A stretch of DNA of 36,238 nucleotides, from positions 1 through 36,238 of the forward strand of contig JAMWBQ010000007.1 in assembly GCA_023819315.1 (NCBI GenBank), written 5' to 3'. Shown here piece by piece: positions 817-22,231 of the stretch (positions are counted from its first letter, which is position 1; each line of letters starts with the position of its first letter). Position numbers and translations under genes: made by a program. The notes beneath the pieces were generated by a model. That model worked only from the letters and a program-made list of their open reading frames with translations, did no database searches and was not told the DNA's origin. This DNA is from Candidatus Omnitrophota bacterium. Its GTDB lineage: Bacteria; Omnitrophota; Gorgyraeia; Duberdicusellales; 4484-171.

Positions 817-3800
817 ATGAATAAGAATAATCCTCGTATAGTTGATTTGTTTGCCCAAAAAATTTACAATGGTTCCCCTTATAAACTACCACGCAATATG
901 TCCGTACGTATAGAAGATAATTTAGAGGAAGTTAGTTTAACTTTTGCCTTAGAGGTAATTGGTGCTTTACAATTTTATAAGGATTTACCACTGATAGTTA
1001 TTTGTTTATGTGCTGGCAATACTCCTCTTATGGGTTATAGAAAACTGGGAGGGAGGGCGTTAATAAATTTTAGGAATAGAGGAATGGATAGGAATAAACG
1101 GCGATATTTTAAACTGCGTTCTATTTTAGATACTTGGCATACATCTTCTACTCAGAGATTACTTAAGGTTAATGGCTTAGATCCTAAATATAAGCCAGAT
1201 ATGAAAAAAGTAGTGGTATTCAGTATCGATGAAATATTTCCTCGTAAAAGAGATGATATTTTTTCTTTCTCTCGTTTGCTTAATGAAATTTGTGAGCTTT
1301 GGGGTATAGAAAAACAAAATCGTAACTTTTTTTATGGCGATTTATATGTATTTAGAGATAATAATCGTTGGGTAGTTGAAGGGATAAAAGATGAAGAATT
1401 TACAAAGATTACCCATAGTATTGAAAGGGAGGGATTGAAGATAGTAGAGTATCAAGCACACTGTTTACTTAGAAACGATAGAGAGGGGTTCATTTTAAAT
1501 TCACCTTTGCGTATAGAAGGGAATAGGGTTTTTTCCCCGCGGTTAAAACAGAACAAAAGAGGTGATTTTATTTTAGAAGAAACAGTTGTAGAGCCACTTA
1601 CTCCCAATCATATTCAGTATAGGTATATAGATAGTATGCGTAACCAGGCAGTAATGATGAATGAGAAGTTAAAAAATTTAGGTGGGCCACATATAACCAT
1701 ATTAGGTGTTGGTCCCTGTGAATTAGGAGAAGGACATATCGGTTTCTGTGAGAGAGATACTTTACCACAACAGACCTCTTTTATAGGAGCAATTAACGAT
1801 TACGATAAAACCTATCATATATCTTCTTATCATTCTAAAGAGTTTTACGGATTTAAAAATATGTTTGTTACCGTGGGTGGTATTAGAATGCCTAAATTAG
1901 GTTTTATAACCTTCGGTCCACAAGAACTTATTTATGGATACGATAGAAAAAAACTAAGCCCAAGAGTTATCATTATTGCTACAGGGATTAGTAAGAGTGC
2001 ATCTATATTAAAAGGTTTAGAAGCGGATTACGATATTCGTTATCCTTTAGCTTTGAGTAGGAATTCTTACGGTTTATACGTTTTAGATAAGCGTGCCGCC
2101 AGAGAACTTAGGTTATTAAGATTCCCTTGGGAATTTAAAGTTTTATCCCCCCAGTTTTGGGATGATAATTTTTGTAAGGAATATTTAATTAGTTTGGCTA
2201 AATTCTTTCAAAGCTCAATCTCTAAATTGAATGTTGATTTTGATAATATGTATAAAAGACTTTTTAATAATTCTAAAACACATACTTGTAAAAAGAACGC
2301 TCAAAAAAACTTTTTTCATTTTTATAAAGCTATAAAACAAAAAGGGTATGATTTTAACGATTTTAAGAAAAAGATTATTGAAGGTATATTAGCCAATACA
2401 ATTTTCCCTTCCCAAATTAAAGATAAATTAGAACAATTGGGCATAAAAGAAAAGGATAGTATTCTTTTAATAAACCCTCATATGGACGATGAGTTTTTAG
2501 CCCTTGCTCCGATTTTAAAGGAAATGGCTAAATATTATAGAGTTTATAGTGTTTATTTATCTGGTGGTTACCATGGTGTTTACAGTGATTATGTTTTTGA
2601 TTTGTTAGATACAGCCATTAATTTAAGAAATAAAGATATAGTTTCTTTAAATATTAACCATAAAGAAGATTTGTTGAGAGAGTTGATTAGGAATAGGTTT
2701 TTAAGGGTAATCCCCTATTTAGATTACCAGGTTACACCCTATATGAGCGATGAGGAGAAAGAATTAAGAGTAAAATTACTAATTATAGATTTAAATGAAA
2801 GGAGTAAATTAGTTAAAGTGTTCCCTAAAATAAAAATTATTAAGGATATAAAAGATATTGTTAGGCTTAAAGAATTTTTAGAAGCAGTGGAGGAAAGAAA
2901 AAAATATATTTATTCAGAAGATATAGAGATTATGCGTTTTATTAAATCATCACTAAGGTTTAATGAGAGTGTTTCTCTTCTTATGTATTTAGGCCTGTCT
3001 TATAATAACATTTATCCTTCTATGGACAATCTTGGTTGTAATCAGAGCCAAAATGAATATTCAGAATATATTATCAGAATAAAGGATTTAATAACCTCTT
3101 TAAAACCTAAAATGGTAATGGTTAATGGGGAGGGTTATAATCAAGCTAATACTCATTATTATAACCAGATATTCACTTATCTTGCCTTAAAAGATTTAGT
3201 TAGAAATAAAGTTATCAGAAAAGATACTTTAATTCTTCAATGGGGGGGTGTGTGGGATAGATTTAGTATAGGTAGTTCTCAATTGAATGTTATCCTCTCT
3301 AAAGAGGAATTGGACAATTTTAAACACGATTTCAATTATTTTTACCCTACGCAGGCTCCTTATGCTCCTATACCTAATCCGTCAGGATGTTTCCCAAGGT
3401 CTTTTTATGAAGATTTTATTAAAAATGCTAAAGAGAGTAGTCAAGAGTTAATTTCTCTTATAGATTTGCAGGAAGATATTCTTAACAAAGAAGATGGAGG
3501 TTTGATTTCCTACAAGATAGGAAAATTAAAAGATGTGATTAAACAAAATTTTTTATTGATGAAATCATCTCAGGATAGTTATTTTACATCTAAACCATAT
3601 ATTCTACCTCTTCAAGTTAATAAGTTAGATTGTGCACTTATTGGAGATATGGTTAGTAAAGGAGTAATTTATATTACTAAGGAGAAGGAAGCTTTTGGGT
3701 ATGGGGAGAGTTTCTCTTTATCAGTAAAGGATTTGGTTAAAATAGTTTATGATTTTCAGAGAGATATGGAAGGTGGGTTAGAAGGGAAAAAAAGTAGTCT

Positions 3801-5079
3801 TGCTATGTTACCTACTTTTGTAGATATTTCTACAGGTAAAGAGGAAGGTTTATTTTTGGCCTTAGATTTAGGTGGTTCTACATTAAGGATAATGGCATTG
3901 AATTTAAAGAGAGGTAGAAAACCAAAGTTAATCATTGAACGGTTTAATCTAAGAAGCGGTGAGAAAAATAATCTTAATTACGGTAAAGCCGATGATTTCT
4001 TTGCTACGATTGCCAAAAGATTAGAATGGTTTATAACCAAATACAAAAGTAAACTTATATATGGTAAACCTTATCCTTTAGGTTTTACTTTTTCTTTTCC
4101 TGTTAAACATATTTCTGCAGATAAAGCAATACTTAAACGCTGGTCAAAGGATTTCTTTCTTCCTGAGGTTATCAATAAAGATGTAGTGAGTTTTTTGAGA
4201 ACAGCTATTGAGAAAGAGGGTTTATCTAATGTGGTTAGGGTTGTATCTTTGAACAACGATACAGTAGCTACCCTTGTAGCCGGTAGCTATTTTGATAGTA
4301 ACTGTGATATAGGAGGAATTATTGGAACAGGAACGAATTTTTGTTATCGTGAATGGGTAAAGAATATTTGTAAACTAAGCGAGGAAGAAAAATCTCGTTA
4401 TCGAAGAGAGAGAATGATTGTTAATATAGAGTCAGGCAATTTTAATAAATTACCCCGGAGTATTTACGATATAAAATTAGATGATACCTCCTCTAACAGA
4501 GGAGAACAGATAGAAGAGAAAATGGTTTCTGGTTTATATTTAGGCGAACTTACGAGGTTAGTGCTTTTAGACTTGATAGAGAAAAGAATTCTATTTAAAG
4601 GAAATTTATCCTTGGGGGAAAAAGAATCTATACTAATAAAAAATAGTTTCCCCACTCCCTTTATGACGGATATAGCTATAGATAATACACCATCTTTTGA
4701 GATTATTAAAGACTGCCTTATTAAATGGGGGATAAAGGAGGGAAGAATTGAGTTAGAAGATAGATTGATAGTAAAAGATGTGTGTAAAAAGATAGCTTGT
4801 CGTAGTGCCAGATTAAGTGCAAGTATAGTGTTTGCTATAGTTACTCATATTGATAAAGATATAAATTACTACCACACGGTAGCTATAGATGGTAGTCTTT
4901 TTAGTAAGTATCCTCATTTTAAAGATGATATGGAAGATGCTTTGAAAGAATTATCTTGGGAAATATTTGGTGATGATCGCTCTTATAGGATAAGATTGGA
5001 GTTAACATCCGATGGATCAGGTATAGGAGGGGGAATAATTGCTGCTGTAGAGGTTTCTCAAAAGGCTAAGATTATCTAA
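817..5079 (+). CDS. Three-domain fusion: NagB-like glucosamine-6-phosphate deaminase/isomerase (about aa 1-470) + PIG-L/LmbE-like N-deacetylase (about aa 540-890) + eukaryotic-type hexokinase (about aa 985-1420)
   Basis: One uninterrupted 1420-aa ORF. NagB-like: FSIDEIF, GVGPCELGEGHIGFCE (aa about 297). PIG-L: INPHMDDEFLALAP (aa about 552) and downstream NTHYYNQ. Hexokinase: LFLALDLGGSTLRIM (aa about 1012), GFTFSFPVKH, SLNNDTVATLVAG, IGTGTNFCY, GEQIEEKMVSGLYLGELTRLVLLDL, VAIDGSLFSKYPHF, LTSDGSGIGGGIIAAV. Confidence 0.85.
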   Translation: MNKNNPRIVDLFAQKIYNGSPYKLPRNMSVRIEDNLEEVSLTFALEVIGALQFYKDLPLIVICLCAGNTPLMGYRKLGGRALINFRNRGMDRNKRRYFKLRSILDTWHTSSTQRLLKVNGLDPKYKPDMKKVVVFSIDEIFPRKRDDIFSFSRLLNEICELWGIEKQNRNFFYGDLYVFRDNNRWVVEGIKDEEFTKITHSIEREGLKIVEYQAHCLLRNDREGFILNSPLRIEGNRVFSPRLKQNKRGDFILEETVVEPLTPNHIQYRYIDSMRNQAVMMNEKLKNLGGPHITILGVGPCELGEGHIGFCERDTLPQQTSFIGAINDYDKTYHISSYHSKEFYGFKNMFVTVGGIRMPKLGFITFGPQELIYGYDRKKLSPRVIIIATGISKSASILKGLEADYDIRYPLALSRNSYGLYVLDKRAARELRLLRFPWEFKVLSPQFWDDNFCKEYLISLAKFFQSSISKLNVDFDNMYKRLFNNSKTHTCKKNAQKNFFHFYKAIKQKGYDFNDFKKKIIEGILANTIFPSQIKDKLEQLGIKEKDSILLINPHMDDEFLALAPILKEMAKYYRVYSVYLSGGYHGVYSDYVFDLLDTAINLRNKDIVSLNINHKEDLLRELIRNRFLRVIPYLDYQVTPYMSDEEKELRVKLLIIDLNERSKLVKVFPKIKIIKDIKDIVRLKEFLEAVEERKKYIYSEDIEIMRFIKSSLRFNESVSLLMYLGLSYNNIYPSMDNLGCNQSQNEYSEYIIRIKDLITSLKPKMVMVNGEGYNQANTHYYNQIFTYLALKDLVRNKVIRKDTLILQWGGVWDRFSIGSSQLNVILSKEELDNFKHDFNYFYPTQAPYAPIPNPSGCFPRSFYEDFIKNAKESSQELISLIDLQEDILNKEDGGLISYKIGKLKDVIKQNFLLMKSSQDSYFTSKPYILPLQVNKLDCALIGDMVSKGVIYITKEKEAFGYGESFSLSVKDLVKIVYDFQRDMEGGLEGKKSSLAMLPTFVDISTGKEEGLFLALDLGGSTLRIMALNLKRGRKPKLIIERFNLRSGEKNNLNYGKADDFFATIAKRLEWFITKYKSKLIYGKPYPLGFTFSFPVKHISADKAILKRWSKDFFLPEVINKDVVSFLRTAIEKEGLSNVVRVVSLNNDTVATLVAGSYFDSNCDIGGIIGTGTNFCYREWVKNICKLSEEEKSRYRRERMIVNIESGNFNKLPRSIYDIKLDDTSSNRGEQIEEKMVSGLYLGELTRLVLLDLIEKRILFKGNLSLGEKESILIKNSFPTPFMTDIAIDNTPSFEIIKDCLIKWGIKEGRIELEDRLIVKDVCKKIACRSARLSASIVFAIVTHIDKDINYYHTVAIDGSLFSKYPHFKDDMEDALKELSWEIFGDDRSYRIRLELTSDGSGIGGGIIAAVEVSQKAKII

Positions 5080-5171: not shown

Positions 5172-7157
5172 ATGGGCGAGGTTATTCAGGGAGTTAGTCT
5201 TTTTAACGACGAAGATATTTACCTGTTAAAAGAGGGTAACCATTTCCGCCTCTACGATAAGTTGGGTGCGCATACTTTAGTGATAGATGGTAAGGAAGGG
5301 ACCTATTTTGCTGTATGGGCACCTAATGCTAAGGAAGTATCTGTTATAGGTAATTTTAATGGGTGGAATCCCCATACTCACAAATTATCTTCTCGTTGGG
5401 ATAATTCTGGTGTATGGGAAGGTTTTACTCCTGGGGTTAAAGAAGGTGCTCTTTACAAATACCATATAGTTTCCCACTACAATAATTATACGGTAGATAA
5501 AGCTGACCCCTTTGCTTTTTATAGCGAAGTTCCTCCCAAATCAGCTTCCATAGTTCATAATTTAGATTATAAATGGAATGACCAGAAATGGATGGAGGAA
5601 AGAAAAAAATATAATAGTCTTAACTCCCCTATGTGTATATACGAGGTACATTTAGGTTCTTGGAGAAGATTAGTAGAGGAGAATAGGAGATTCCTTACAT
5701 ATCGTGAGGTTGCACATTTGTTAGTAGATTACATAAAAGATATGGGTTTTACTCATATAGAGTTATTGCCAATAATGGAGCACCCTTTTTATGGTTCTTG
5801 GGGTTATCAGATGTTAGGTTTTTTTGCTCCTACCAGTCGCTATGGTAAACCACAAGATTTTATGTATTTTGTAGATTACCTTCATCAAAACGGTATAGGT
5901 TTAATTTTGGATTGGGTCCCTTCCCATTTCCCTACCGATGGGCATGGATTAGTTTTTTTTGATGGGACACATCTTTACGAACATCAAGACCAGAGAAAAG
6001 GTTATCAACCTGATTGGGGTAGTTATATATTTAATTACGGTAGGAACGAAGTGCGTAGCTTTCTTATAAGTAGTGCCCTTTTCTGGTTAGATAAATACCA
6101 TGCTGATGGTTTAAGAGTTGATGCTGTAGCTTCTATGCTCTATTTAGATTATTCTCGAAAGAATGGGGATTGGATACCGAACCAATATGGTGGTAACGAA
6201 AATCTTGAAGCTATAGCTTTTATGAAACGATTGAATGAAATGGTTTATGGGACATTTCCAGACGTTCAAACTATAGCTGAAGAATCTTCTGCTTGGCCTA
6301 TGGTAACAAGGCCGGTATACGTAGGTGGTTTAGGATTCGGTCTAAAATGGAATATGGGTTGGATGCATGATACTTTATTCTATTTTTCCAAGGACCCTAT
6401 TTATCGTAAATACCATCACGATAGTCTTACTTTTAGTCTTTGGTACGCTTTCACTGAGAATTTTTTACTATCTCTTTCTCATGATGAAGTTGTTCATGGT
6501 AAAGGTTCTCTTTTAAATAAGATGCCCGGTGATGAATGGCAGAAGTTTGCCAATTTAAGATTGTTATTCGGATATATGTATACTCACCCGGGCAAAAAAT
6601 TATTATTTATGGGTGAAGAGTTTGGACAATGGCGGGAATGGAATCATGAGGAGAGTTTGGATTGGCATCTTCTTAATTATCCTATGCATCAGGGAGTACA
6701 GAAGTGGGTTAGAGATTTAAACCATTTTTATAGAAACGAACCAGCACTCTATGAAATTGATTTTTCTCCCGAAGGTTTTCAATGGATAGATTTTCGTGAT
6801 TATGAAGGTAGCATAATTAGTTTTATTCGTAAGGGGTTTTCTACTAAGGATATTATTTTTGTCGTCTGCAATTTCACTCCTGTTCCTCGTTTTAACTACA
6901 AAGTTAAAGTTCCTGCGGGTGGTTTATGGAAAGAGATATTTAATAGCGATGCTAAGGAATACGGCGGTAGTGGTATAGGTAATTTTGGAGGTATAGAAGC
7001 AATAGAAAGTTCTTTTTCCCATAATACCTATGAGCTTTCTTTAACATTACCTCCTTTAGGTATTTTAATATTTAAGAAAGAGATTAAAGAACAACCCTTA
7101 AAAGATTCCAAGAGGAAGAATAAAAAAGTTACAACCAAGAATAGTTTAAAAGATTAG
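5172..7157 (+). CDS. glgB: 1,4-alpha-glucan branching enzyme (GH13)
   Basis: CBM48-like N-terminus ([21 protein letters not shown]); GH13 motifs [62 protein letters not shown]. Confidence 0.97.
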
Positions 7158-7178
7158 TTGTATACCTCTAGAGAATAT

Positions 7179-9608
7179 ATGAATCATTTCGTTTGTATTC
7201 ACGCTCACTGTTATCAACCACCAAGAGAAAATCCTTGGTTGGAGGAAGTTGAACAGGAACCATCAGCGTATCCGTATCATGATTGGAATGAGAGGGTTAC
7301 TGCGGAAAGTTACGCTCCTAACACAGCATCACGTAGACTGGATGGTGATAATTGGATTATCGATATTGTAAATTTATATTCCAAGATAAGTTTTAATTTT
7401 GGTCCTACCCTTATGTTTTGGTTAGAAAAACATAGACCTAAAGTTTATCAAGCGATTATTTCAGCGGATAAAGAGAGTAGAAAGAATTTTTCCGGACATG
7501 GTTCAGCAATTGCCCAAGCTTACAATCATATGATTATGCCTTTAGCTAATAGTAGAGATAAGTTAACTCAGGTAATTTGGGGAATAAAAGATTTCGAGTT
7601 TCGTTTTGGAAGGAAGCCTGAAGGAATGTGGTTACCAGAAACTGCTGTGGATAGAGAAACATTGGAGATTTTAGCCACACAAGGGATAAAATTTACCATT
7701 CTTTCTCCTTTTCAGGCAAAATGGATAAAAAGGATAGGTTCAACACAATGGATAGATGTTCGGGGAGGGAAAATTGATACTAAAAGACCGTATATATACA
7801 GCTTACCTTCGGGTAAAAGGATTATTATTTTCTTCTATTGTGGTGAGATATCTAATGATATTGCTTTTGGTAGGCTATTAGATAGGGGAGAGGAATTTGC
7901 TAAACGATTATCCTCATTGTTTGACCGGCAGAATAACGAACCGCAGATATGTAACGTGGCTAACGATGGAGAAACTTACGGGCATCATCGTAAACATGGC
8001 GATATGGCTTTAAATTATTGTTTATATTATTTGATGACGAACAAATTAGCTCAAATTACCGTTTATGGTGAATATTTAGAAAGGTTTCCTCCCACCTATG
8101 AGGTAGAAATTATAGAGAACACATCTTGGAGTTGTGTTCATGGAGTAGAGAGGTGGAGAGATGATTGTGGTTGCAATTCAGGTATGCATTTAGGTTGGAA
8201 GCAAAGTTGGCGTAAAAATCTTCGGGAAGCGATGGATTGGTTACGAGATAAATTAATCCCCATATATGAGAAGAGTATGTCAGGTTATGTTGTTGACCCT
8301 TGGGCATTACGGAACGAATATATAACGGTGATACTTAATCGTGATAGAGATAACGTAGAAAGATTTTTTAAGAAATATATAAAGAAAAAATTGTCCTATG
8401 AAGAAAAAAACAAAATATTGAGTTTGTTGGAGATGCAACGGTGTTCTATGCTTATGTATACGAGTTGTGGTTGGTTTTTTGATGATATTTCAGGTATAGA
8501 GACTATCCAGATAATGCATTACGCTAATAGAGCAATGTATCTTTGTTATCGAACAACAGGTATATCTTTGCACGATGATTACCTAAGGTTACTCAAATCT
8601 GCCAAGAGTAACATTAGTGGTTTAAAGGATGGAGTGAGTATTTATGAGATTTTCGTTAAGCCAGCAATAGTAAATCTTTTAAATGTAGGTGTTCATTACG
8701 CAGTTTCTTCTCTATTTAACCATTACCCTTCTACTACTAAATTATTTAGTTATAGGGTAAATAGATACTCCTACGAAAAGATAGAAGATAGAAAAAACAA
8801 ATTTGCTTGTGGAAGAGTTCTTATCCGTTCGGATATTACCTGGGAAGAAGAAATTATTAGTTTTGCCGTGGTTCATTTAGGTGGCCATAATTTATTGGCT
8901 GGCGTTACGGAATCAAGTAAAATAAAAGATTTTAACAGGATGAGGGATGATTTGAAGAATAGATTTATAAGAGGAGAATATGAAGAAACTATAAAATTAA
9001 TAAACAAATATTTTTCTTCTAATACTTATTCTTTGTGGCATCTTTTTTGTGATGAGCGGAATAGAATTATTAATGTTATATTTGAAGAAGCTATACAAGA
9101 TATAGAAGTAACGTTTAATAAACTTTATAACGACTATCATATTTTGGCGCAGGTAGCAAAGAATTCCGGTGTGAATATCCCCGAAATATTTATGTCAATT
9201 ATAGATTTTGTTTATAATCATAAAGTTTATAATTTTTTAAAGAAAGGTGAATTTAATGTGGAAAATTTAATGCAGATAATTAACGAGTTTAAAAATTGGT
9301 CTTTGATTTTAGATAGAACGAAACTTAATATCCTTATGGGGAAGATTATTGAGGAACTAATGGAAGATTTCATAAAAGATCCTAACGGTATATCTATCTT
9401 AGATAGAGTTTTAAATGTAGTAGAAGTGGGGAATATTTTATCGCTTGACTTTTCTCTTTGGGAAGCTCAAAATATGTATTTCCATATAGCGAATAAATTA
9501 ATAAGTAGGAAGAAAGAAAATCTACATAAAAATGATAGAGAATCTAAACTATGGTTGGATAAATTTCTAAGGTTGGGGAAATATTTAAGGGTTAAGATAG
9601 ATAGGTAA
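7179..9608 (+). CDS. Glycoside hydrolase family 57 protein with DUF3536-type C-terminus
   Basis: MNHFVCIHAHCYQPPRENPWLEEVE...PYHDWNERVTAESYAPN, GMWLPETAVDRETLEIL. The ORF track starts at TTG 7158; ATG 7179 fits the family N-terminus better. Confidence 0.88.
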   Translation: MNHFVCIHAHCYQPPRENPWLEEVEQEPSAYPYHDWNERVTAESYAPNTASRRLDGDNWIIDIVNLYSKISFNFGPTLMFWLEKHRPKVYQAIISADKESRKNFSGHGSAIAQAYNHMIMPLANSRDKLTQVIWGIKDFEFRFGRKPEGMWLPETAVDRETLEILATQGIKFTILSPFQAKWIKRIGSTQWIDVRGGKIDTKRPYIYSLPSGKRIIIFFYCGEISNDIAFGRLLDRGEEFAKRLSSLFDRQNNEPQICNVANDGETYGHHRKHGDMALNYCLYYLMTNKLAQITVYGEYLERFPPTYEVEIIENTSWSCVHGVERWRDDCGCNSGMHLGWKQSWRKNLREAMDWLRDKLIPIYEKSMSGYVVDPWALRNEYITVILNRDRDNVERFFKKYIKKKLSYEEKNKILSLLEMQRCSMLMYTSCGWFFDDISGIETIQIMHYANRAMYLCYRTTGISLHDDYLRLLKSAKSNISGLKDGVSIYEIFVKPAIVNLLNVGVHYAVSSLFNHYPSTTKLFSYRVNRYSYEKIEDRKNKFACGRVLIRSDITWEEEIISFAVVHLGGHNLLAGVTESSKIKDFNRMRDDLKNRFIRGEYEETIKLINKYFSSNTYSLWHLFCDERNRIINVIFEEAIQDIEVTFNKLYNDYHILAQVAKNSGVNIPEIFMSIIDFVYNHKVYNFLKKGEFNVENLMQIINEFKNWSLILDRTKLNILMGKIIEELMEDFIKDPNGISILDRVLNVVEVGNILSLDFSLWEAQNMYFHIANKLISRKKENLHKNDRESKLWLDKFLRLGKYLRVKIDR

Positions 9609-9978: not shown

Positions 9979-10374
9979 ATGGTATATTTAAAGGATTTAT
10001 TTCAAACAGCCGATTGGCGAGCAGAAAAGCATGTGCCGGTAATAGAAAGTGTGAGTGAGGTAACCAAAGGTATGTCAATTAAAGTAACCGCTATGGTGGG
10101 CAAAGAAATTCCTCACCCTAATACTACTGAGCATCATATAGCCTGGATTGAACTGTACTTTCTACCTTTGGGTGAGAAATTCCCCTATCAATTAGGAAGA
10201 TACGAATTTTCTTCTCATGGTGCATCTATAAATGGACTAAACACTAGCACAGTATACACTCAGCCAGAGATAACAATTAATTTTAAAACGGATAAATCAG
10301 GAACGATCTATGCAACAGCTTATTGTAATATCCATGGATTATGGACAAATTCTAAAGAATTAAAGGTTATATAG
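9979..10374 (+). CDS. Superoxide reductase (neelaredoxin, class II SOR type)
   Basis: ADWRAEKHVPVIE, GKEIPHPNTTEHHIAWIELYF, TAYCNIHGLWTNSKEL: E-K-H-x-P plus His ligands and CxxH. Confidence 0.93.
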   Translation: MVYLKDLFQTADWRAEKHVPVIESVSEVTKGMSIKVTAMVGKEIPHPNTTEHHIAWIELYFLPLGEKFPYQLGRYEFSSHGASINGLNTSTVYTQPEITINFKTDKSGTIYATAYCNIHGLWTNSKELKVI

Positions 10375-10416
10375 TTAGAAAAATTTAATGGTGAAGGTAA
10401 AAGGAGATAATTAATA

Positions 10417-10935
10417 ATGAATTTAGAAAAAACAAAAGTTAATACTCAAATAGATGATAAACTAATAGGGTTATTTTGTTCTGTAGTTGATGTAGAGGCT
10501 CTTACTCATAAATGTTGTACACATCTTAGTACATTAGTTGCCAATGGTAGAGTAAGGAATAGATTGTTACGATGTGCAAAATATGCAAATAGGAATAAAG
10601 AGTTGATTTTGAAGTATTTGAATTCTCAAGAATTTGTTTACGTTTGCGAAGAAAAATGTGAGTTCTGTAAAATTAAACCGGAAAGCTTCTCTGTTTTAGG
10701 AGCGATAAAGTTAGGTGAAGAGATTACTTCTCTGGGTATAAAACTCTACAAAAAGATATTAGATGAGTGTTCACATACAAGAGAAAAGAGAATGATTTTA
10801 AACATAATTAAAGAGAAAATTCGTCAAAGGGATTTTTTTAAAAAGGAAGAAGAATTCTGGGAGAATAGAGGAGATAAATTAGGTATAGTTAGTTCTTACT
10901 GTATACCTAATATTATTTCTTCTCTTTGGAAATAG
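10417..10935 (+). CDS. Uncharacterised Cys-containing, probably all-helical protein
   Basis: 172 aa; LTHKCCTHL, CEEKCEFCKI; helix-rich; inside the O2-defence cluster; no confident family. Confidence 0.6.
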   Translation: MNLEKTKVNTQIDDKLIGLFCSVVDVEALTHKCCTHLSTLVANGRVRNRLLRCAKYANRNKELILKYLNSQEFVYVCEEKCEFCKIKPESFSVLGAIKLGEEITSLGIKLYKKILDECSHTREKRMILNIIKEKIRQRDFFKKEEEFWENRGDKLGIVSSYCIPNIISSLWK

Positions 10936-10977
10936 TTTTATCTTATCCACCCGTGAGGTGGAGTTGGAGGTTAGAGA

Positions 10978-11118
10978 ATGAATAAAAAAGGTAATAAAAA
11001 ATATAAAGAGAGTGTTTATGTTTGTTTTGTATGTGGTAAAGAGAAAAAATTAAAAACTAAAGTAAAATGTTGCGGCAAATATATGACTGCCAAAGAGAAA
11101 GGTAGCTGGAATATTTAG
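10978..11118 (+). CDS. 46-aa zinc-ribbon-like mini-protein
   Basis: Below the ORF-track cutoff: MNKKGNKKYKESVYVCFVCGKEKKLKTKVKCCGKYMTAKEKGSWNI*; upstream GGAGG; tight spacing to its neighbours. Confidence 0.6.
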   Translation: MNKKGNKKYKESVYVCFVCGKEKKLKTKVKCCGKYMTAKEKGSWNI

Positions 11119-11139
11119 TCTAAACTTTAGATAAGCTAT

Positions 11140-12096
11140 ATGGTAAATACTCAAGCGAAGATAGCAATAGTAGGTGTAGGGAATGTAGGTAGTACATTTG
11201 CTTTTTCTTTGATGATGCGTGGGATAGCCAGAGAGATTATCCTTATTGATAGAGATATGAAGCGTGCGCAAGGTGAGTGTATGGATTTAAATCATGGAGC
11301 AAGTTTTGTTCCTCCTGTAAAAATATACTCGCAAGGTTATGAAGGTTGTCAAGGTGCAAATATAGTTGTTATTACCGCAGGAGTTAGACAATTACCGGGA
11401 GAAACGAGGATAGATTTAGTTAATCGCAATATAGATGTTTTTAAAGAAATTATTCCTAAGATAGTAAATTATGCCAAAGATGCTATTCTTCTGGTTGTTT
11501 CTAACCCTGTAGATATTCTTAGTTATTTTACTTGGAAAATATCAGGATTACCCTCTAAAAGAGTTATAGGTTCAGGAACTGTTTTAGATAGTTCAAGATT
11601 TAGATACCTTATAAGTCAATATTGTCAAATAGACCCAAGGAATATTCACGCTTACGTAATTGGAGAACACGGTGACAGCGAGTTACCCCTGTTAAGTTCT
11701 GCAAATATAGGGGGCATGCCTTTTCTTAATTATTGTCCGTTTTGTTTCAAATTTTCTCATTGCAATCCACAAAAAGAATTAGAGAATATTTTTAAAGAAG
11801 TAAAGAATGCAGCTTATAAGATTATTGAAGCAAAAGGAGCCACTTACTATGCTATCGCTTTAGCATTGGTAAGAATTGTAGAGGCAATTCTAAGGAATGA
11901 AAATTCCCTACTGCCTATTTCTACCCTTATTTATGATTACTATGGAATAGATGATGTTTATTTAGGTATGCCATCAATAGTTAATGCTAATGGTGTAGAA
12001 AAATTTTTAAGATTAGATTTATCATCTCAGGAAGAAGAACAATTACGTTATTCAGCTAATGTTTTAAAGGAAATAATAAAGAAAGTAAATCTGTAA
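11140..12096 (+). CDS. ldh: L-lactate dehydrogenase
   Basis: IAIVGVGNVGSTFAF, TAGVRQLPGETRIDLV (Gln at the specificity loop favours LDH over MDH), VSNPVDIL, GSGTVLDSSRFR, IGEHGDSELP. Confidence 0.92.
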   Translation: MVNTQAKIAIVGVGNVGSTFAFSLMMRGIAREIILIDRDMKRAQGECMDLNHGASFVPPVKIYSQGYEGCQGANIVVITAGVRQLPGETRIDLVNRNIDVFKEIIPKIVNYAKDAILLVVSNPVDILSYFTWKISGLPSKRVIGSGTVLDSSRFRYLISQYCQIDPRNIHAYVIGEHGDSELPLLSSANIGGMPFLNYCPFCFKFSHCNPQKELENIFKEVKNAAYKIIEAKGATYYAIALALVRIVEAILRNENSLLPISTLIYDYYGIDDVYLGMPSIVNANGVEKFLRLDLSSQEEEQLRYSANVLKEIIKKVNL

Positions 12097-12115
12097 GAAT
12101 ATTAGGAGGTAGATG

Positions 12116-12259
12116 ATGGATAAATATAAATGTTTGGTATGTGGTTACATTTATGACCCTTTAGAGAATAACGGTGTGCTTTTTGATAATTTACCCGATG
12201 ACTGGGTTTGTCCTGAGTGTGGGGTAGATAAGAGTAACTTTGAAAGATTGGAGGAGTAA
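12116..12259 (+). CDS. Rubredoxin
   Basis: Below the ORF-track cutoff: [56 protein letters not shown] at 12104-12110. Confidence 0.96.
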
Positions 12260-12276
12260 ATAAAGGAGGTGTTACT

Positions 12277-12765
12277 ATGGGGACAAAAGCAAGAGAAATC
12301 GCTGGTAAAGATTTAAAGAAAACAATTGCTCTTTTGAACAAAGCTTACGCTGATGAATGGTTAGCTTACTATCAGTACTGGGTAGGAGCTAAAGTAGCTA
12401 TAGGTATAATGAGAGGTGCGGTTACTTCTGAGTTAGAGCAGCATGCACAAGAAGAACTTAAACACGCCACCATGCTTACAGAAAGGATAATCCAGTTAGG
12501 AGGAGAACCAATTTTGAATCCCCAAAATTGGGTTAAAGAGACAAACTGTGGTTATAAAGCTCCTACTGACCCTAAAGTGGTTACTCTTTTAAAACAAAAT
12601 ATTGAAGGTGAGCAGTGTGCTATAGAGGTATACAATAAATTAGCTGATTCAGTTAAGGATAAAGATATAGTTACTTATAATATGATCTTAGAGATTTTAA
12701 AAGATGAAGTAGAACACGAAGAAGATTTAGAGGCTATATTGAGAGATATTCAGACAGGTAAATAA
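12277..12765 (+). CDS. Ferritin-like protein (bacterioferritin/Dps-type)
   Basis: YADEWLAYYQYWVGAKVA, HAQEELKHATMLTERIIQLGGEP, EGEQCAIEVYNKLAD, EILKDEVEHEEDLE: carboxylate/His di-iron pattern. Confidence 0.88.
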   Translation: MGTKAREIAGKDLKKTIALLNKAYADEWLAYYQYWVGAKVAIGIMRGAVTSELEQHAQEELKHATMLTERIIQLGGEPILNPQNWVKETNCGYKAPTDPKVVTLLKQNIEGEQCAIEVYNKLADSVKDKDIVTYNMILEILKDEVEHEEDLEAILRDIQTGK

Positions 12766-12772
12766 TTTTAAT

Positions 12773-12811
12773 TTCCCCCTCATTACACCCGCCGGGTGTA
12801 ATGAGGGGGAA
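12773..12811. repeat. 39-nt near-perfect palindrome (19-bp arms, 1-nt centre): TTCCCCCTCATTACACCCG-C-CGGGTGTAATGAGGGGGAA
   Basis: Read directly between the ferritin and fprA genes; a second, half-degenerate copy lies at 36011-36036. Confidence 0.9.
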
Positions 12812-12821
12812 GGGAGAAATT

Positions 12822-14009
12822 ATGCAGATAGCTAATAATATTTATTGGACAGGTTATATTGATTGGGGGTTGAGGAATTTTCATGGTTATTCTACACCAT
12901 CTGGTTCTACGTACAATGCTTATCTTATTGTTGATGAATATCCTACTATTATAGATACAGTTAAACATTACGGTTTTGCTCAGATGCTTTTTGAGATTAA
13001 AGACATAATTGACCCTTCTCGTATACGGTACATTGTTTCTAATCATTCTGAGATGGATCATTCAGGATCAATAGATAAACTTATAGAATTTTCTCCTAAC
13101 GCGGAAGTGATTTGTTCTCCTCAGGGAAAAGAAAACTTGCGTTATCATTTTAAGAAAAATTGGAAATTCAAAGTGGTAGATACACAAGATACGTTGAATA
13201 TAGGTAAGCGCACATTAAAGTTTTTTCTTACCCCGATGGTTCATTGGCCGGATTCAATGGTTACTTATAGCGAAACTGATGGTATACTTTTCTCTAACGA
13301 TGCTTTTGGCCAACACTATGCGAGTGTAGAAAGATTTGTTGATGAAGCAGGTAGAGATATCGTTTTAAGAGAATCTGCTAAATATTATGCTAATATCGTT
13401 ATGCCTTACGGAAATAATGTTTTAAAAACATTAGAGACATTAAATTCTCTTAAAATAGAAATGATTTGCCCTTCCCATGGTTTAATTTGGAGAAAGAAAG
13501 AAGATATAGAAAAGATTAAAGAACTTTATCTTAAATGGGGTAGTTACCGAACAGATAAAAAAGTTGTTATTGTTTACGATACTATGTGGGGTTCTACGGA
13601 AAGAATTGCTTTTGAGCTTTTTAAACTGATTGGTAAATTAAATATACCTTGCCGTTTAATTAATCTCGCTGTTACGCATATATCTGAGGTTATTACTGAG
13701 GTATTGGAAGCGAAAGTTTTAATTTTAGGTACACCTATACTTAACAATAAAATTTTTCCCACGGTTGCTTCTTTTCTAACTTATTTGAGAGGGTTAAAAC
13801 CGAAGAATCGTTTTGGATTAACTTTTGGTTCTTACGGTTGGTCAAAGTTAGGATTTAAAGAATTGGAGGATGGTATTAAGGAAGCAGGGATAGAACTTAT
13901 TGCTGAAGGTATATATCCCCGATATGTTCCTGATGATGATTTCCTGAATGATATTTCAAAAGTAGTTATCAAGATAAAAGAGTTGTTGGATAAGGAGGAG
14001 ATTTTATGA
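12822..14009 (+). CDS. FprA-type flavodiiron protein
   Basis: Metallo-beta-lactamase di-iron motif SNHSEMDHSGSID and SPQGKENLRYHF, FSNDAFGQHYAS, C-terminal flavodoxin domain KVVIVYDTMWGSTERIA. The ORF-track start at 12801 lies inside the palindrome; ATG 12822 has the SD. Confidence 0.95.
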   Translation: MQIANNIYWTGYIDWGLRNFHGYSTPSGSTYNAYLIVDEYPTIIDTVKHYGFAQMLFEIKDIIDPSRIRYIVSNHSEMDHSGSIDKLIEFSPNAEVICSPQGKENLRYHFKKNWKFKVVDTQDTLNIGKRTLKFFLTPMVHWPDSMVTYSETDGILFSNDAFGQHYASVERFVDEAGRDIVLRESAKYYANIVMPYGNNVLKTLETLNSLKIEMICPSHGLIWRKKEDIEKIKELYLKWGSYRTDKKVVIVYDTMWGSTERIAFELFKLIGKLNIPCRLINLAVTHISEVITEVLEAKVLILGTPILNNKIFPTVASFLTYLRGLKPKNRFGLTFGSYGWSKLGFKELEDGIKEAGIELIAEGIYPRYVPDDDFLNDISKVVIKIKELLDKEEIL

Positions 14010-14494
14010 GTAATATTTTTAGTCCTCAAGAGATTTTAAGAATAGCAATTAAGGTTGAAGAAAATGGTAAGAAGCTTTATGAGATTTTAGAAAATAAATC
14101 AAAATTAGATAAACTGAAAGGGATGTGGAAATATTTGAAGGAACAAGAAGATAGCCATCGGAATATATTTAAACAGATGTTAGAAAATGTAGGAGATTAC
14201 ATCGTTTACGAGTTTAGTCCTGGCGAATACGACAGTTATCTCTCAGCAATAGCTTCTGATTACGTTTTTACTCAGAATTTAATCGAAGAGAAAATAAAAG
14301 ATTTATTTACTTCTGATATTGAGGCAATAGATTTCGGTATATATATAGAGAAACAGTCTATCCTCGTTTACTCCTCTTTAAGAGATTATGTAATTAAAGA
14401 TAAGCAAGATGTAATTGGTAAGGTTATAGATGAAGAGAAAAATCATTTATCCCAGCTTAATTTAATGAAGGGAACAATTTCTAAAATTAATTAA
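14006..14494 (+). CDS. Rubrerythrin-like ferritin-fold protein
   Basis: ATGA overlap with fprA; ILRIAIKVEENGKKLYEIL, KYLKEQEDSHRNIFKQML, IEKQSILVYSSL, VIDEEKNHLSQL. Confidence 0.75.
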   Translation: MSNIFSPQEILRIAIKVEENGKKLYEILENKSKLDKLKGMWKYLKEQEDSHRNIFKQMLENVGDYIVYEFSPGEYDSYLSAIASDYVFTQNLIEEKIKDLFTSDIEAIDFGIYIEKQSILVYSSLRDYVIKDKQDVIGKVIDEEKNHLSQLNLMKGTISKIN

Positions 14495-14513
14495 GAAAAA
14501 ATGGAGGTATGAA

Positions 14514-14750
14514 ATGAATATAAAAGTTTATTCAACACCCACCTGTCCTTACTGTAAAATGGCAAAGCAGTATTTAGCTTCTAAAGGATTTACCTATGAA
14601 GATTTGGATGTCTCTCAAGATAGGGGGGCTTTAGAAGAGATGGTAAGAATCTCCGGTCAAATGGGAGTACCAGTTATAGTGATTGATGGTGAGGTAGTAG
14701 TTGGTTTTGATCGAGCAAGAATAGATTCTCTTCTTCCCAGAAATATTTAA
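14514..14750 (+). CDS. Glutaredoxin-like protein
   Basis: MNIKVYSTPTCPYCKMAKQYLASKGFTYEDLDVS...GQMGVPVIVIDGEVVVGFDRARID; CPYC active site. Confidence 0.94.
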   Translation: MNIKVYSTPTCPYCKMAKQYLASKGFTYEDLDVSQDRGALEEMVRISGQMGVPVIVIDGEVVVGFDRARIDSLLPRNI

Positions 14751-14759
14751 AACTTTTAT

Positions 14760-15674
14760 ATGCTTAAAATATATGACCTCATAATTTTGGGGGCTGGCCC
14801 TTCGGGAATAACGGCAAGTGTATACTCTGCCCGTAAAAAGATGGATTTCTTAGTGATTACCAAAGATATTGGTGGACAGGCAGCGTGGAGTGGAGATATA
14901 GAAAATTATATAGGTTACCAATTTATTAGCGGCCCACAGTTAGTTACGAAATTTGAAGAACATATGAGGCATTTTGGTATAGATATTCGTATGCCTGAGG
15001 AGGTAAAAGAGATTTTTAAAGATAATGATCTTGTGCATACGGTAACAGATAAATCTGAATATATCTCGCGCACTTTGATAGTTGCTACCGGTAAACGCCC
15101 AAAAGAATTGGGGATTGAAGGAGAGAGAGAATTTAAAAATAGGGGAGTTACCTATTGTGCTACCTGTGATGGTCCTTTGTTTAGCGGTAAAATTGTAGCA
15201 ATTATTGGAGGTGGCAATTCTGCCTTAGATGCCGCCTTACAGATGGTTAAAATTTCACCTTTGGTATACATTATTAATATCGGTGAAAGATTGACCGCAG
15301 ATAATGTAATGGTAGAGAAAATTAATAGCTATCCCAATGTAGTAATATATAATAGAACAGTGGTAAAAAGAATTTATGGAGATAAATTCGTTAAAGGATT
15401 AGAGGTCTTAAGAGATGATAAATTAGAGGATATAGCTTTAGAGGGAATTTTTGTAGAGATAGGACTTATACCTAATTCAGATTTTGCCGGTATTTTGGAG
15501 CTTAATAAGGATAAAGAAATAATTGTAGATTGCACAAATAGAACAAATATAGAGGGAATATTTGCTTGCGGTGATGTTACTAATGTTCCGGAAAAACAGA
15601 TTATCGTTGCCTGTGGAGAAGGAGCAAAAGCTTCTCTATCAGCCTTTAGATACCTATATACTCACAATTGGTAA
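14760..15674 (+). CDS. trxB: Thioredoxin reductase
   Basis: LIILGAGPSGITASVYSARK, YCATCDGPLFSGKIVAIIGGGNSALDAALQM, GIFACGDVTNVPEKQIIVACGEGAKASLSAFRYL; CATC motif. Confidence 0.94.
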   Translation: MLKIYDLIILGAGPSGITASVYSARKKMDFLVITKDIGGQAAWSGDIENYIGYQFISGPQLVTKFEEHMRHFGIDIRMPEEVKEIFKDNDLVHTVTDKSEYISRTLIVATGKRPKELGIEGEREFKNRGVTYCATCDGPLFSGKIVAIIGGGNSALDAALQMVKISPLVYIINIGERLTADNVMVEKINSYPNVVIYNRTVVKRIYGDKFVKGLEVLRDDKLEDIALEGIFVEIGLIPNSDFAGILELNKDKEIIVDCTNRTNIEGIFACGDVTNVPEKQIIVACGEGAKASLSAFRYLYTHNW

Positions 15675-15683
15675 AGATAATTT

Positions 15684-16157
15684 ATGAAAAGTTTAAATAG
15701 GGATATAGTTAATTTTTTTGAAAGGCAGGGTTTCGTTATCGTCTCTACGATCAATCCTTATGGAAATATTCATTGTTCTGCTAAAGGAATTGCTGATATA
15801 GATGAGAATGGTTTGGTATATATTATTGATCTATATGTGGGTAGAACTTTTAACAATTTGAAGAATAACCCCACAATTAGTATTACTGCTATAGATGAAC
15901 ATTTATTCATAGGATATACTTTAATAGGTAAAGCAAAAATTGTAGAAGGAGAGAAAATTAATAGCAATATTATTATGAATTGGGAGGAGCGCCTAATAAA
16001 GAGGATTTCTAAAAGAGTTATAAGAAATATTAAGGATGATAGAAAAAATAATCGTCATCCCGAATCCCGTTTCCCTACACCAAAATATTTAATTGAGATG
16101 GAAGTAGAAGATATAGTTGACCTTACTCCTCGAGATTTATTTAAATCATTCTCCTAA
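15684..16157 (+). CDS. Pyridoxamine 5'-phosphate oxidase-related FMN-binding protein
   Basis: FFERQGFVIVSTINPYGNIHCSAKGI...VYIIDLYVGRTFNNLKNNPTISITAIDE split-barrel pattern. Confidence 0.8.
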   Translation: MKSLNRDIVNFFERQGFVIVSTINPYGNIHCSAKGIADIDENGLVYIIDLYVGRTFNNLKNNPTISITAIDEHLFIGYTLIGKAKIVEGEKINSNIIMNWEERLIKRISKRVIRNIKDDRKNNRHPESRFPTPKYLIEMEVEDIVDLTPRDLFKSFS

Positions 16158-16290
16158 TCAAAACATCACTTAGGAGTGTACATTGCAATTTCAAAACTAA
16201 TCCACGATTCAATTTCACAAGATATTCCTAAAAATAAAATTTTGATGATTTTTTATCTTTTAATTTATTAGAGAAGAAATTTGTCTAAAA

Positions 16291-18525
16291 ATGAGTGAAA
16301 AAAATAAATTGTTTTTTTTATCAATTTTGATTGCTTTTATAGGATTCACTTCTGTTTTTTCTCAGAGTATTTTTATAAGAGAATTAATAGTGGTTTTTTC
16401 TGGTAACGAAGGGGCTATAGGGATTATTTTATGTTTTTGGCTCTTCTGGTCTTCAGTAGGTAGCATAATTTTGGGAAAATTAGGGAGAAGAATAATAAGA
16501 ATAGAGAGATTTTTCTTTTTTATTTATCTTACATACATTATTTTTATCTTGGTTGAGTTAATTCTAATTAGAAATATAAGGGTAATTCTAAGACTTAACC
16601 CGGGAGAAATTGTCGGACCGATAGAGATGATTTATATTTCTTTTTTTGTTTTAGCACCGTTTTCTTTAACTAATGGTTCAATTTTTATCTTGAGTGTAGA
16701 AATCCTATCTAAGTTGTTAGCTAAGAATAGCTTAAGTATGGTTTATTCTATAGATGCTTTAGGAGATATGTTGGGGGGCTTAGCTTTCTCTTTTTTATTT
16801 GTTTTTATTCTCTCTTCTTTTCATAACCTATACTTGATGGTTATGTTGAATTTGTTTTTTATTTTAATGTACGTATATTTTTATAGGTTAGGTAAAATAT
16901 ACTTTTTTTTAACTACTGCACTTATATTTACCTTTATAATTTTTGGTTTTTTTGTTCACTCTATAGATAGTTTCCTTTTGAATCTTGAATGGAAAGAATT
17001 TAATCTAATCGCTAAGAAGATCTCCCCTTACAGTAACATATATATAACTAAAAATAGGGATAGTTTTAGTGTGTTTGAGAATGGTTTTTTAAGTTTTAGT
17101 TTCCCTGAACCTTTAAATTCCCAAGAAACAGTTCATTTGACTTTTTTACAAAGTAAAGATTGTAAGCGTATACTTATTGTAGGAGAAGGAGTTAGTGGCT
17201 TACTTTATGAGATTCTAAAGTATCCTGTGGAGGAGGTTTACTATTTAGAATTGGACCACAATTTAATATCCCTACTTAAAAATTATTTACCTCCAAAATA
17301 CAAGGGAACACTCTATAACCCTAAGGTGAAAATTTACAATTTGGAAGCAAGGGTATTTTTGAATTACTATCGGGGAGAAAAATTTGATATAGTTCTTATC
17401 AATACACCTCCACCTTATAATGCTTACCTCAACAGATTCTATACTTACGAGTTTTTTAATAAAATTAAAACAATTATAAAAGAAGAGGGCGTTTTTTCCT
17501 TTACTTTACCTTATCAAGAGGGTTACCTAAGTAAGGAGTTAAGGAATCTTATTTCCAGTATATACTATACTTTAAATAAAGTTTTCCCTCACATTTTACA
17601 TATTCCTGGTAGAGAACTTAGATTTATCGCTTCTTTGAGTTCCACTCAACTTACTTACAACCCTGATATAATTTCTGCTCGTTTAGAAAAATACAATTTA
17701 TCTACAGAGTTCTTTAACAGATTCTATTTAGAGAGTAGATTGTTACCTTGGCATATAAATTATTTAGGAGATGTAATAAGAGAAAATAGTAAGGTAAGAT
17801 TAAATTACGATTTTTCTCCTGTTAGTTACTACTATGGGATTATCTTTTTTTCTTCATTTTTTAAATTTTGGTTAGTAAGAATATTTTATTTTCTAATTCG
17901 TATTAAGCCTTATTTTTATTTAATTTTGTTTTTTATGGTATGGATATTTACCTATGCTTTAAAGAAGAGGTATTTTGTTATTTTATCAGTTTTTAGTATG
18001 GGTGGATTAGGTATAGCTTCCCTAATAATATCCATTTTAGGTTTTGAAATAATTTATGGTTATGTTTACCATAAAATTGGGCTAATGAGTACTTTCTTTA
18101 TGTTAGGTCTTGCTTGTGGTTCTAATTACTTTAATAAAAAGAGGTATCTTAGATTTGATTTTCTTCCCTATTTATACTTTATAGGAGCAATATATGTGTT
18201 CTTTTTACCATATTTATTTAGACTATTAGAGAAATTGCCAATTTTCTTTTCAGGTGTTAGCTTTATTTTCCCTTTTTTAGGAGGTATTTTAGTAGGACTA
18301 AATTTTTCGTGGATAAATGCTTTAAATATTAGCAAAGGTTTTATTAAAAATCCAGGTACTATATATGCTTTTGATCTCGTAGGAGGCGGAAGTTGGGGAA
18401 TTTTTTTGAGTTTATTTTTAATTCCCCTCTATGGTTTATTTATAAGTAGTGGTATAATAAGTTTTATATTATTATTAAGTGGAATATTGAATATTTATTA
18501 TTTTAGAAGTGTTAATTATGGATAA
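16291..18525 (+). CDS. Polytopic membrane protein with a central spermidine-synthase-like domain
   Basis: Hydrophobic segments at the N-terminus (about aa 10-230) and C-terminus (about aa 520-740) flank a Rossmann-like region RILIVGEGVSGLLYEILKY...VYYLELDHNLISLLKNYLP...FDIVLINTPPPYNAYLNRFYTYEFF. Confidence 0.8.
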   Translation: MSEKNKLFFLSILIAFIGFTSVFSQSIFIRELIVVFSGNEGAIGIILCFWLFWSSVGSIILGKLGRRIIRIERFFFFIYLTYIIFILVELILIRNIRVILRLNPGEIVGPIEMIYISFFVLAPFSLTNGSIFILSVEILSKLLAKNSLSMVYSIDALGDMLGGLAFSFLFVFILSSFHNLYLMVMLNLFFILMYVYFYRLGKIYFFLTTALIFTFIIFGFFVHSIDSFLLNLEWKEFNLIAKKISPYSNIYITKNRDSFSVFENGFLSFSFPEPLNSQETVHLTFLQSKDCKRILIVGEGVSGLLYEILKYPVEEVYYLELDHNLISLLKNYLPPKYKGTLYNPKVKIYNLEARVFLNYYRGEKFDIVLINTPPPYNAYLNRFYTYEFFNKIKTIIKEEGVFSFTLPYQEGYLSKELRNLISSIYYTLNKVFPHILHIPGRELRFIASLSSTQLTYNPDIISARLEKYNLSTEFFNRFYLESRLLPWHINYLGDVIRENSKVRLNYDFSPVSYYYGIIFFSSFFKFWLVRIFYFLIRIKPYFYLILFFMVWIFTYALKKRYFVILSVFSMGGLGIASLIISILGFEIIYGYVYHKIGLMSTFFMLGLACGSNYFNKKRYLRFDFLPYLYFIGAIYVFFLPYLFRLLEKLPIFFSGVSFIFPFLGGILVGLNFSWINALNISKGFIKNPGTIYAFDLVGGGSWGIFLSLFLIPLYGLFISSGIISFILLLSGILNIYYFRSVNYG

Positions 18526-19618
18526 GTTAAGATTTATATTTCTCATATTTTTTTGTTTTTTCTTAAGCATTTGCTATTCTCTTGATTACAAAGAAGCTTT
18601 GTACTGGCAAGCAGAGGAGAATGGTAATGTTAGATGTGCGTTATGCCCAAGAAGGTGTGTTATAGCAAAAGGTAATAGAGGGTTTTGTGGAGTAAGGATA
18701 AATCGTGATGGTAAGTTGTATACTTTAGCTTATAATAATCCCGTAGCTATAGCTGTTGACCCTATAGAGAAGAAACCTTTCTTTCATGTTTTACCAGGCA
18801 CAGGAGCTTTTTCTTTAGCTATTTCTGGTTGTAATATGAGGTGCCTTTTTTGTCAAAATTGGCATATCTCTCAAGCAAAGCCTGATGAGACAATAAACTA
18901 TACTCTTTCCCCGGCTGATATTGTAAGAATGGCAAAAAAATATAATTGCCCATCAGTAGTATTCACTTATACCGAACCAACTGTATTTTATGAGTATATG
19001 CTTGAAACTGCTAAGTTATCTAAGCAGGAGGGGTTATTAGTGGGTATGCATAGTTGCGGGTATATAAACGAGGAACCACTCGTTGAGTTACTAAGGTATA
19101 TGGATTTTATTAATGTTGATTTGAAGAGTTTTTCTCCAGATTTCTATAGAGAAATGAGTAATGGAGCAGATTTAAATAGTGTGCTTACCACATTAAAAAA
19201 GATAAAGGAAGCAAATATTCACTTAGAGATTACCAATTTAGTTATTCCTACTAAGAATGATTCCCCCCAAGAGGTGAGAAATTTATGTTTATGGATAAGA
19301 GACAATTTAGGTGTAGATACACCTGTTCATTTTTCTCGTTTTTTCCCTCATTATAGGTTAAAGAACTTACCACCAACGCCTGTAAGTAATCTAAAAGAGA
19401 TTTATAATATGGCTAAAGAGGTAGGGCTAAAATTCGTTTATATCGGTAATGTCCCTGGAATAGAAGAGGAATCTACATATTGTCCCAAATGTAATAATTT
19501 ACTGATAAAGCGGGTAGGTTATTCCATTTTAGAGAATAATATTAGAGATGGTAAATGTAAATTTTGTGGAGAAACTATACCGGGTATATGGGAAGGGGAA
19601 AAGGAGAGTAAGTTTTGA
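18518..19618 (+). CDS. AmrS-like (AmmeMemoRadiSam-type) radical SAM protein with N-terminal signal/anchor segment
   Basis: MDKLRFIFLIFFCFFLSICYSLDY leader; CALCPRRCVIAKGNRGFCGVR; radical SAM SGCNMRCLFCQNWHISQ (CxxxCxxC); C-terminal ribbon YCPKCNNLL...CKFCGETIPG. ORF-track start is GTG 18509; ATG 18518 preferred. Confidence 0.88.
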   Translation: MDKLRFIFLIFFCFFLSICYSLDYKEALYWQAEENGNVRCALCPRRCVIAKGNRGFCGVRINRDGKLYTLAYNNPVAIAVDPIEKKPFFHVLPGTGAFSLAISGCNMRCLFCQNWHISQAKPDETINYTLSPADIVRMAKKYNCPSVVFTYTEPTVFYEYMLETAKLSKQEGLLVGMHSCGYINEEPLVELLRYMDFINVDLKSFSPDFYREMSNGADLNSVLTTLKKIKEANIHLEITNLVIPTKNDSPQEVRNLCLWIRDNLGVDTPVHFSRFFPHYRLKNLPPTPVSNLKEIYNMAKEVGLKFVYIGNVPGIEEESTYCPKCNNLLIKRVGYSILENNIRDGKCKFCGETIPGIWEGEKESKF

Positions 19619-21826: not shown

Positions 21827-21837
21827 GAGGTGAATTT

Positions 21838-22221: not shown

Positions 22222-22231
22222 AATATTTGAT

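Follow-up and report, generated by a model that had tools for sequence, protein, structure and literature searches.

A single chain with NagB-like, PIG-L-like and hexokinase domains

The window analysed here is a 36,238-nucleotide stretch of a Candidatus Omnitrophota bacterium genome (assembly GCA_023819315.1, contig JAMWBQ010000007.1). Its forward strand, which also carries nadA and the two glycoside hydrolase genes directly downstream, contains a single uninterrupted open reading frame (ORF; positions 817–5079) that starts with ATG and encodes a 1,420-residue protein in which a NagB-like domain, a PIG-L-like deacetylase domain and a hexokinase domain follow one another. A first, sequence-only reading had placed all three families in one continuous ORF; profile and fold matches bear this out, and every motif quoted in that reading was found where it had been located. 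The ORF is present as a single copy in its own genome (1.88 Mb, 92.5% complete). Among 386 genomes of the uncultured phylum Omnitrophota (labelled with G-numbers, the own genome being G000), an architecture search recovered all three domains together in three: the own genome, G001 from the same genus (87% identity to the window ORF) and G258, which belongs to a different family (49% identity across residues 28–1412, again in one frame). This recurrence indicates that the ORF is not an assembly accident.

The NagB-like domain spans residues 1–460 (817–2196), the PIG-L-like domain residues 540–890 (2434–3486) and the hexokinase domain, with both lobes, residues 964–1418 (3706–5070). Comparison of the window ORF with that of G001 gave ratios of nonsynonymous to synonymous substitution rates (dN/dS) of 0.23 for the NagB-like domain, 0.32 for the PIG-L-like domain and 0.21 for the hexokinase; these low values show that each domain is maintained as a protein under purifying selection. 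Constraint is relaxed in the linker that precedes the hexokinase (3487–3705, residues 891–963), where dN/dS is 1.6 for codons 890–963. A Pfam scan found both hexokinase halves above their cut-offs, whereas PIG-L (PF02585) remained sub-threshold at 19.4 versus 28.2 bits and the NagB-like domain gave no match to PF01182. The closest described two-domain arrangement is PRK02122/NF002557 (NCBIfam, ‘glucosamine-6-phosphate deaminase-like’), in which NagB precedes PIG-L in one chain. The match spans both domains (E 1.7e-17), but the window sequence scores far under the cut-off (62.8 versus 384 bits), has a replacement at a key NagB position, carries large insertions and has a hexokinase appended. 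The parts are thus members of known families; what is new lies in how they are combined, in the changed sites of the NagB-like and hexokinase domains, and in a link to giant proteins described below.

Of the 386 genomes, about 15 contain NagB-PIG-L modules and about 37 contain hexokinases (counts from the match table), so that the scarcity of eukaryotic-fold hexokinases assumed for bacteria in general does not extend to Omnitrophota. Beyond this phylum, the architecture search comprised one genome-collection scan for close relatives, plus plasmids. The search for plasmid or viral carriage found no NagB-PIG-L module; distant eukaryotic-type hexokinases (25–29% identity) were seen on plasmids of two unrelated bacteria, Parabacteroides (NZ_OY725779.1) and Entomospira (NZ_CP118182.1). 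Two complete mid-size proteins, of 1,815 residues in G099 and 1,515 residues in G384, carry a central NagB-PIG-L module and have no Pfam match anywhere, including their N-terminal ~550–600 residues.

Catalytic sites of the three domains

Residues of the NagB-PIG-L half were examined in an alignment of 14 relatives, with NagB equivalences assigned by alignment to the NagB family. The equivalents of NagB Asp-72, His-143, Glu-148 and Lys-208 are invariant in all 14: Asp-138 in FSIDE (1219–1233), His-307 and Glu-312 in GEGHIGFCE (1726–1752), and Lys-393 in GISKS (1984–1998). The phosphate-loop equivalent is GNTP (1015–1026, residues 67–70). Glu-139 of FSIDE, unlike Asp-138, was found in this genus only. 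In NagB, Asp-141 belongs to the ring-opening triad. Its position is occupied by Glu-305 in the window and its closest relatives and by Lys or Leu in others, so a carboxylate is not conserved there; the sequence-only reading, which saw the catalytic Asp, His and Glu kept with one Asp-to-Glu change, was right about Asp-138, His-307 and Glu-312 and too generous about this site. The loop preceding the Gly-His pair contains a four-residue insertion, and a family-specific motif, FPQKRTD with an invariant Arg-145, takes the place of the usual NagB loop. Because the Asp-141 equivalent is not conserved, a normal glucosamine 6-phosphate (GlcN-6-P) deaminase activity does not follow from the alignment.

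The family assignment was further examined by profile and fold searches. A profile built from the 14 sequences finds GlcN-6-P deaminases (3hn6, E 3e-10). When an AlphaFold2 model of residues 1–920 (pLDDT 84, pTM 0.84) was compared with the PDB, GlcN-6-P deaminases ranked first (best E 2e-9, target TM ~0.73–0.81) and 6-phosphogluconolactonases came next. The latter hits, together with the lost Asp-141 and the family-specific residues such as Arg-145, could be taken to mean that the domain acts as a sugar-phosphate isomerase or lactonase, yielding a product other than fructose 6-phosphate (Fru-6-P) from amino sugars. With deaminases ahead in both profile and fold searches, and with the Asp-72, His-143, Glu-148 and Lys-208 equivalents invariant, we consider this very unlikely.

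In the PIG-L-like domain, the HxDD motif and distal His that would form the metal site are kept, as had been noted from the sequence: His-555, Asp-557 and Asp-558 of HMDDE (2479–2493; metal and base residues) and His-780 of NTHYY (3148–3162; the third metal ligand equivalent) are invariant in 14 of 14. The 14-sequence profile finds diacetylchitobiose deacetylases (8bgo, E 1e-5). These archaeal PIG-L enzymes (8bgo, 4xm0 and 3wl4) are the nearest solved relatives and share the HxDD...H site; unlike the window domain, with which they have ~10% identity, they are stand-alone proteins and lack its large insertion. The structural model retrieves them less convincingly than it does the deaminases for the NagB-like domain (E 4e-4 to 2e-3, target TM 0.48–0.58). 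Both folds are likely to be sound, and catalysis by the two domains is predicted.

In the hexokinase domain, Hexokinase_1 and Hexokinase_2 (PF00349/PF03727) match at E 2.5e-49 and 3.5e-64 (168 and 217 bits versus a cut-off of 24), and the nearest solved structures in a PDB sequence search are mammalian hexokinases. The signature had been called nearly complete from the sequence, and comparison with rat HK1 confirms that all catalytic positions are kept, with equivalents present for Asp-657 (the catalytic Asp, in NNDTV at 4252–4266), Asn-656, Lys-621, Asn-683, Glu-708, Glu-742, Ser-603, Asp-532 and Asp-861. The domain thus resembles the known family (mammalian HK1–4 and the yeast enzymes) in both lobes and in all catalytic residues; it differs in being fused to NagB-PIG-L and in one sugar-loop residue. 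In the motif IESG (4426–4437), the glucose-contact Glu is followed by Ser where free-standing hexokinases carry Trp. The E-W-G loop, which is typical of the family without defining it, is retained in rat HK1 and in 20 of 20 free-standing Omnitrophota hexokinases, and its Trp is Ser or Ala in all ten members of a clade made up of the fused hexokinases and those from giant proteins or long contig-end fragments. A comparable loop is that of YlNag5, a hexokinase-family N-acetylglucosamine (GlcNAc) kinase of Yarrowia; this loop, which the enzyme has in common with hexokinases, reads NCEASLF (E-A-S), and its Glu is essential (PMC4376941). YlNag5 shares the hexokinase fold and a non-Trp residue after that Glu; it is fungal and unfused, and the loop likeness is a resemblance and not a specificity test. 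The loss of Trp and the similarity to YlNag5 thus appear to point away from plain glucose, though they prove no substrate.

Related modules in the giant proteins of Omnitrophota

Many of the NagB-PIG-L and hexokinase matches fall within open frames of great length: 57,756 residues in G266, 32,526 in G390, 27,888 in G250, 18,187 in G038, 9,390 in G028 and 8,943 in G018. The frames of G390, G250, G028 and G018 overrun both contig ends and that of G266 is open at one end. The G266 frame (G266:C2:22777-196044), of at least 57,756 residues, has its NagB-PIG-L module at residues 33,882–34,763; it also contains repeated ~100-residue units (FFTWQL) near residue 21,000 and one run of ~34 X residues from N bases. 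A weak match to a G018 giant was seen in a 2,987-residue open frame of the own genome (G000:C135:11114-11383). Published work on Omnitrophota giant ORFs reports few annotated domains and roles that are little understood, possibly in adhesion or predation (Seymour et al. 2023, PMC10066038), and another paper notes that it is uncertain whether such proteins stay intact (PMC12057145). The published giants were not described as sugar-metabolism chains, and our literature search, which did not extend to subscription papers and preprints and so leaves novelty unproven, found no report of hexokinase-PIG-L or glycolytic enzymes in them.

Several of these frames carry the modules among ordinary sugar-metabolism enzymes. 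The Pfam map of the single 27,888-residue frame G250:C35, covering residues ~10,000–20,000, begins with phosphoglucomutase/phosphomannomutase, phosphoglucose isomerase (PGI), a shikimate-dehydrogenase N-domain, 6-phosphogluconate dehydrogenase, 6-phosphogluconolactonase, a second PGI, a PRK-like domain, ARMT1 and hexokinase. It continues with a methyltransferase, a histidine phosphatase, an amidohydrolase that matches the NagA profile (E 1e-59), a member of the orotidine-monophosphate-decarboxylase/HUMPS family and SIS. The PF01182 domain in G250 was considered as a canonical NagB beside the hexokinase and rejected: it has 6-phosphogluconolactonase motifs (DER, GADGHTMSLF) and adjoins the 6-phosphogluconate dehydrogenase. 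In G028 the order is hexokinase, glycoside hydrolase families 57 and 77 (GH57, GH77), oxidoreductases, esterase, inositol phosphatase-like, adenylate kinase, PIG-L and NagB; in G033 it is PGI C-terminus, acetyltransferase, dehydrogenase and hexokinase. Canonical NagB directly precedes hexokinase in two giant fragments: in G388 the hexokinase follows 33 residues on, and G030 opens with a NagB C-terminus homologous to that of G388, ahead of hexokinase, phosphofructokinase and alpha-amylase. NagB-PIG-L stands alongside TPR, GT5, ARMT1, RpiA and LysM pieces in G018 and G038. These contents offer a handle on what some giants may do.

Phylogenetic analysis ties the window protein to these frames. 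In a hexokinase tree of 38 rows, the fused hexokinases of the window, G001 and G258 group at 100/100 support and join seven from giants or long contig-end fragments at 99/96, apart from the free-standing ones; the NagB-PIG-L half of the fusion groups with giants G018 and G266 (100/100). These trees indicate that the fusion modules share ancestry with those found in giants, whose lengths run from 9,390 residues up to 57,756 or more. As the window protein is an ordinary-sized chain of 1,420 residues, well below the length of a giant (more than ~5,000 residues), the most fitting reading is that it presents giant-protein modules in a compact, stand-alone form. Such an origin could also mean that the modules were co-inherited from one giant frame, in which case their adjacency would imply no consecutive reactions, and giants do combine many enzymes whose reactions are not consecutive. 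We regard this explanation as distinctly unlikely. The three-domain protein has been kept intact in two families with low dN/dS throughout its domains, and none of the giants examined has a NagB-PIG-L of this type beside a hexokinase, so that simple excision is not seen.

Each giant also overuses a short motif of its own: DGG in G250 (66 observed versus 7.4 expected from composition), SSPL in G038 (32 versus 0.5), SSP/SASP in G390, SSS in G028 and LQTSSTRK in G018. The motifs tend to lie outside Pfam domains, with 1 of 28 inside at 43% coverage for G250 (binomial p 3.6e-6), 0 of 10 at 34.5% for G028 and 0 of 27 at 13.6% for G390, the last being weak alone. In G390 and G250 they lie to either side of the hexokinase, and in G018 they likewise enclose NagB-PIG-L. 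DNA repeats were ruled out as their source, since 62 DNA words encode 68 SSP sites in G038 and 20 encode 66 DGG sites in G250; codons vary, and the constraint is therefore on the protein. Ordinary ORFs of the fetched loci had no excess of DGG or SSP. The motifs were chosen after looking, and disordered linkers could explain part of the pattern. We hypothesize that they serve as linkers or else mark sites at which metabolic polyproteins are processed. Extending this, some giants might be intracellular metabolic polyproteins of dozens of sugar-metabolism enzymes, with the genome-specific motif as a protease site or dedicated linker and the window protein as a small stand-alone relative. This idea, drawn from sequence patterns, is somewhat unlikely and would be categorically new if true; it makes a clear prediction of its own, namely cleavage or its absence at the motifs.

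A candidate amino-sugar pathway and its genomic setting

All three domains are probably active, because their catalytic residues are kept and each is under purifying selection. Our tentative proposal, to which we give slightly less than an even chance, is that the protein is an amino-sugar enzyme with three functions. Its hexokinase domain would phosphorylate glucosamine (GlcN) or GlcNAc at O6, the PIG-L domain would use a bound metal to strip the acetyl group, and the NagB-like domain would turn the resulting GlcN-6-P into Fru-6-P and ammonia. Alternatively, the acetyl group may be removed before phosphorylation, so that GlcNAc passes through GlcN and GlcN-6-P to Fru-6-P. PIG-L deacetylation precedes phosphorylation in the diacetylchitobiose (chitin) route of Thermococcales, and the closest PIG-L relatives with solved structures use unphosphorylated chitobiose. 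Hexokinases, for their part, accept GlcN, as reported for yeast hexokinase (PMC4376941). Substrates, order of steps and any channelling are inferred. The channelling suggested by the sequence-only reading cannot be derived from the fusion itself: single frames that join numerous unrelated enzymes are common in this phylum, which makes fusion weaker evidence for it here.

The enzyme complement of the genome is consistent with this proposal. No canonical NagB (PF01182) and no NagA were found in the own genome or in G001, and PF02585 matched no other PIG-L in the own genome, which encodes GlmS, PGI and one ROK-family kinase. Also in favour of the proposal are the giant fragments of G388 and G030, with NagB immediately ahead of hexokinase, the G028 frame, which holds hexokinase, PIG-L and NagB together, and the missing Trp in the sugar loop of the fused and giant hexokinases. 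Of the earlier suggestion that the protein carries GlcNAc or GlcN to Fru-6-P, the presence of the three families stands, whereas neither the order of steps nor a normal deaminase follows; replacement of NagA by PIG-L, which was part of that suggestion, fits the absence of separate NagA and PIG-L genes, within a genome of the completeness given above. A reversed NagB reaction as a GlmS substitute was ruled out, GlmS being present in 10 of 10 genomes tested. Were all three activities confirmed, one bacterial chain would feed amino sugars to glycolysis, with PIG-L standing in for NagA and a hexokinase of eukaryotic type doing the phosphorylation. The stand-alone form can be expressed and assayed, which makes the enzymatic content of giants directly testable.

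Several observations weigh against an amino-sugar enzyme. The Asp-141 position and the loop preceding the Gly-His pair are altered in the NagB-like domain, and the PIG-L domain has its large insertion and weak fold match. The loss of Trp counts as a single change passed down within the clade and not as repeated evolution, and in G018 and G266 no hexokinase adjoins the NagB-PIG-L module. No NagZ-type GH3 was found in five genomes (GH18 and GH20 were not searched), and there is thus no evident recycling source of GlcNAc. The downstream neighbours are alpha-glucan enzymes, and those in G258 (DnaX, RibBA, LigA and a BatD-like protein) are unrelated to sugars; the differing neighbours also rule out a conserved operon as functional evidence.

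The closest rivals to an amino-sugar role are the descent from giant modules weighed above and a role in glucose or alpha-glucan metabolism, in which the hexokinase would serve as a glucokinase for glucose released by the branching and GH57 enzymes and the NagB-PIG-L half would either have a different sugar or conjugate as its substrate or regulate the kinase. Directly downstream lie a glycogen-branching-enzyme-like GH13 gene with CBM48 (5172–7157) and, 1 bp from it, a GH57 gene with DUF3536 (7158–9608; listed TTG start), and G001 has the same arrangement by length and order. In G266 and G038, the stretch ahead of NagB-PIG-L is homologous to a phosphorylase-like piece of G388, and the glucose-contact side chains are kept except for the Trp and a Thr-620 to Ser change. 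Against this, G258 has its fusion protein among non-sugar genes, only the clade of fused and giant hexokinases departs from E-W-G, and the invariant catalytic residues speak against a purely regulatory NagB-PIG-L half. On balance we judge a glucose role unlikely and retain the trifunctional amino-sugar enzyme as the working proposal.

Upstream, nadA (quinolinate synthase, 1–792) ends 24 bp before the fusion ORF; it is probably co-transcribed with it and lies outside the system. Further along the window, positions 9979–15674 encode desulfoferrodoxin, a ferritin-like protein, a flavodoxin-type metallo-beta-lactamase, rubrerythrin and a flavin disulphide oxidoreductase, an oxygen-stress set of anaerobes. 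A 744-residue protein (16291–18525) has a spermine-synthase-like domain in its middle only, the remainder being unmatched, and positions 20720–25800 contain glycine cleavage genes (GcvT and both GcvP halves) and a lipoate ligase.

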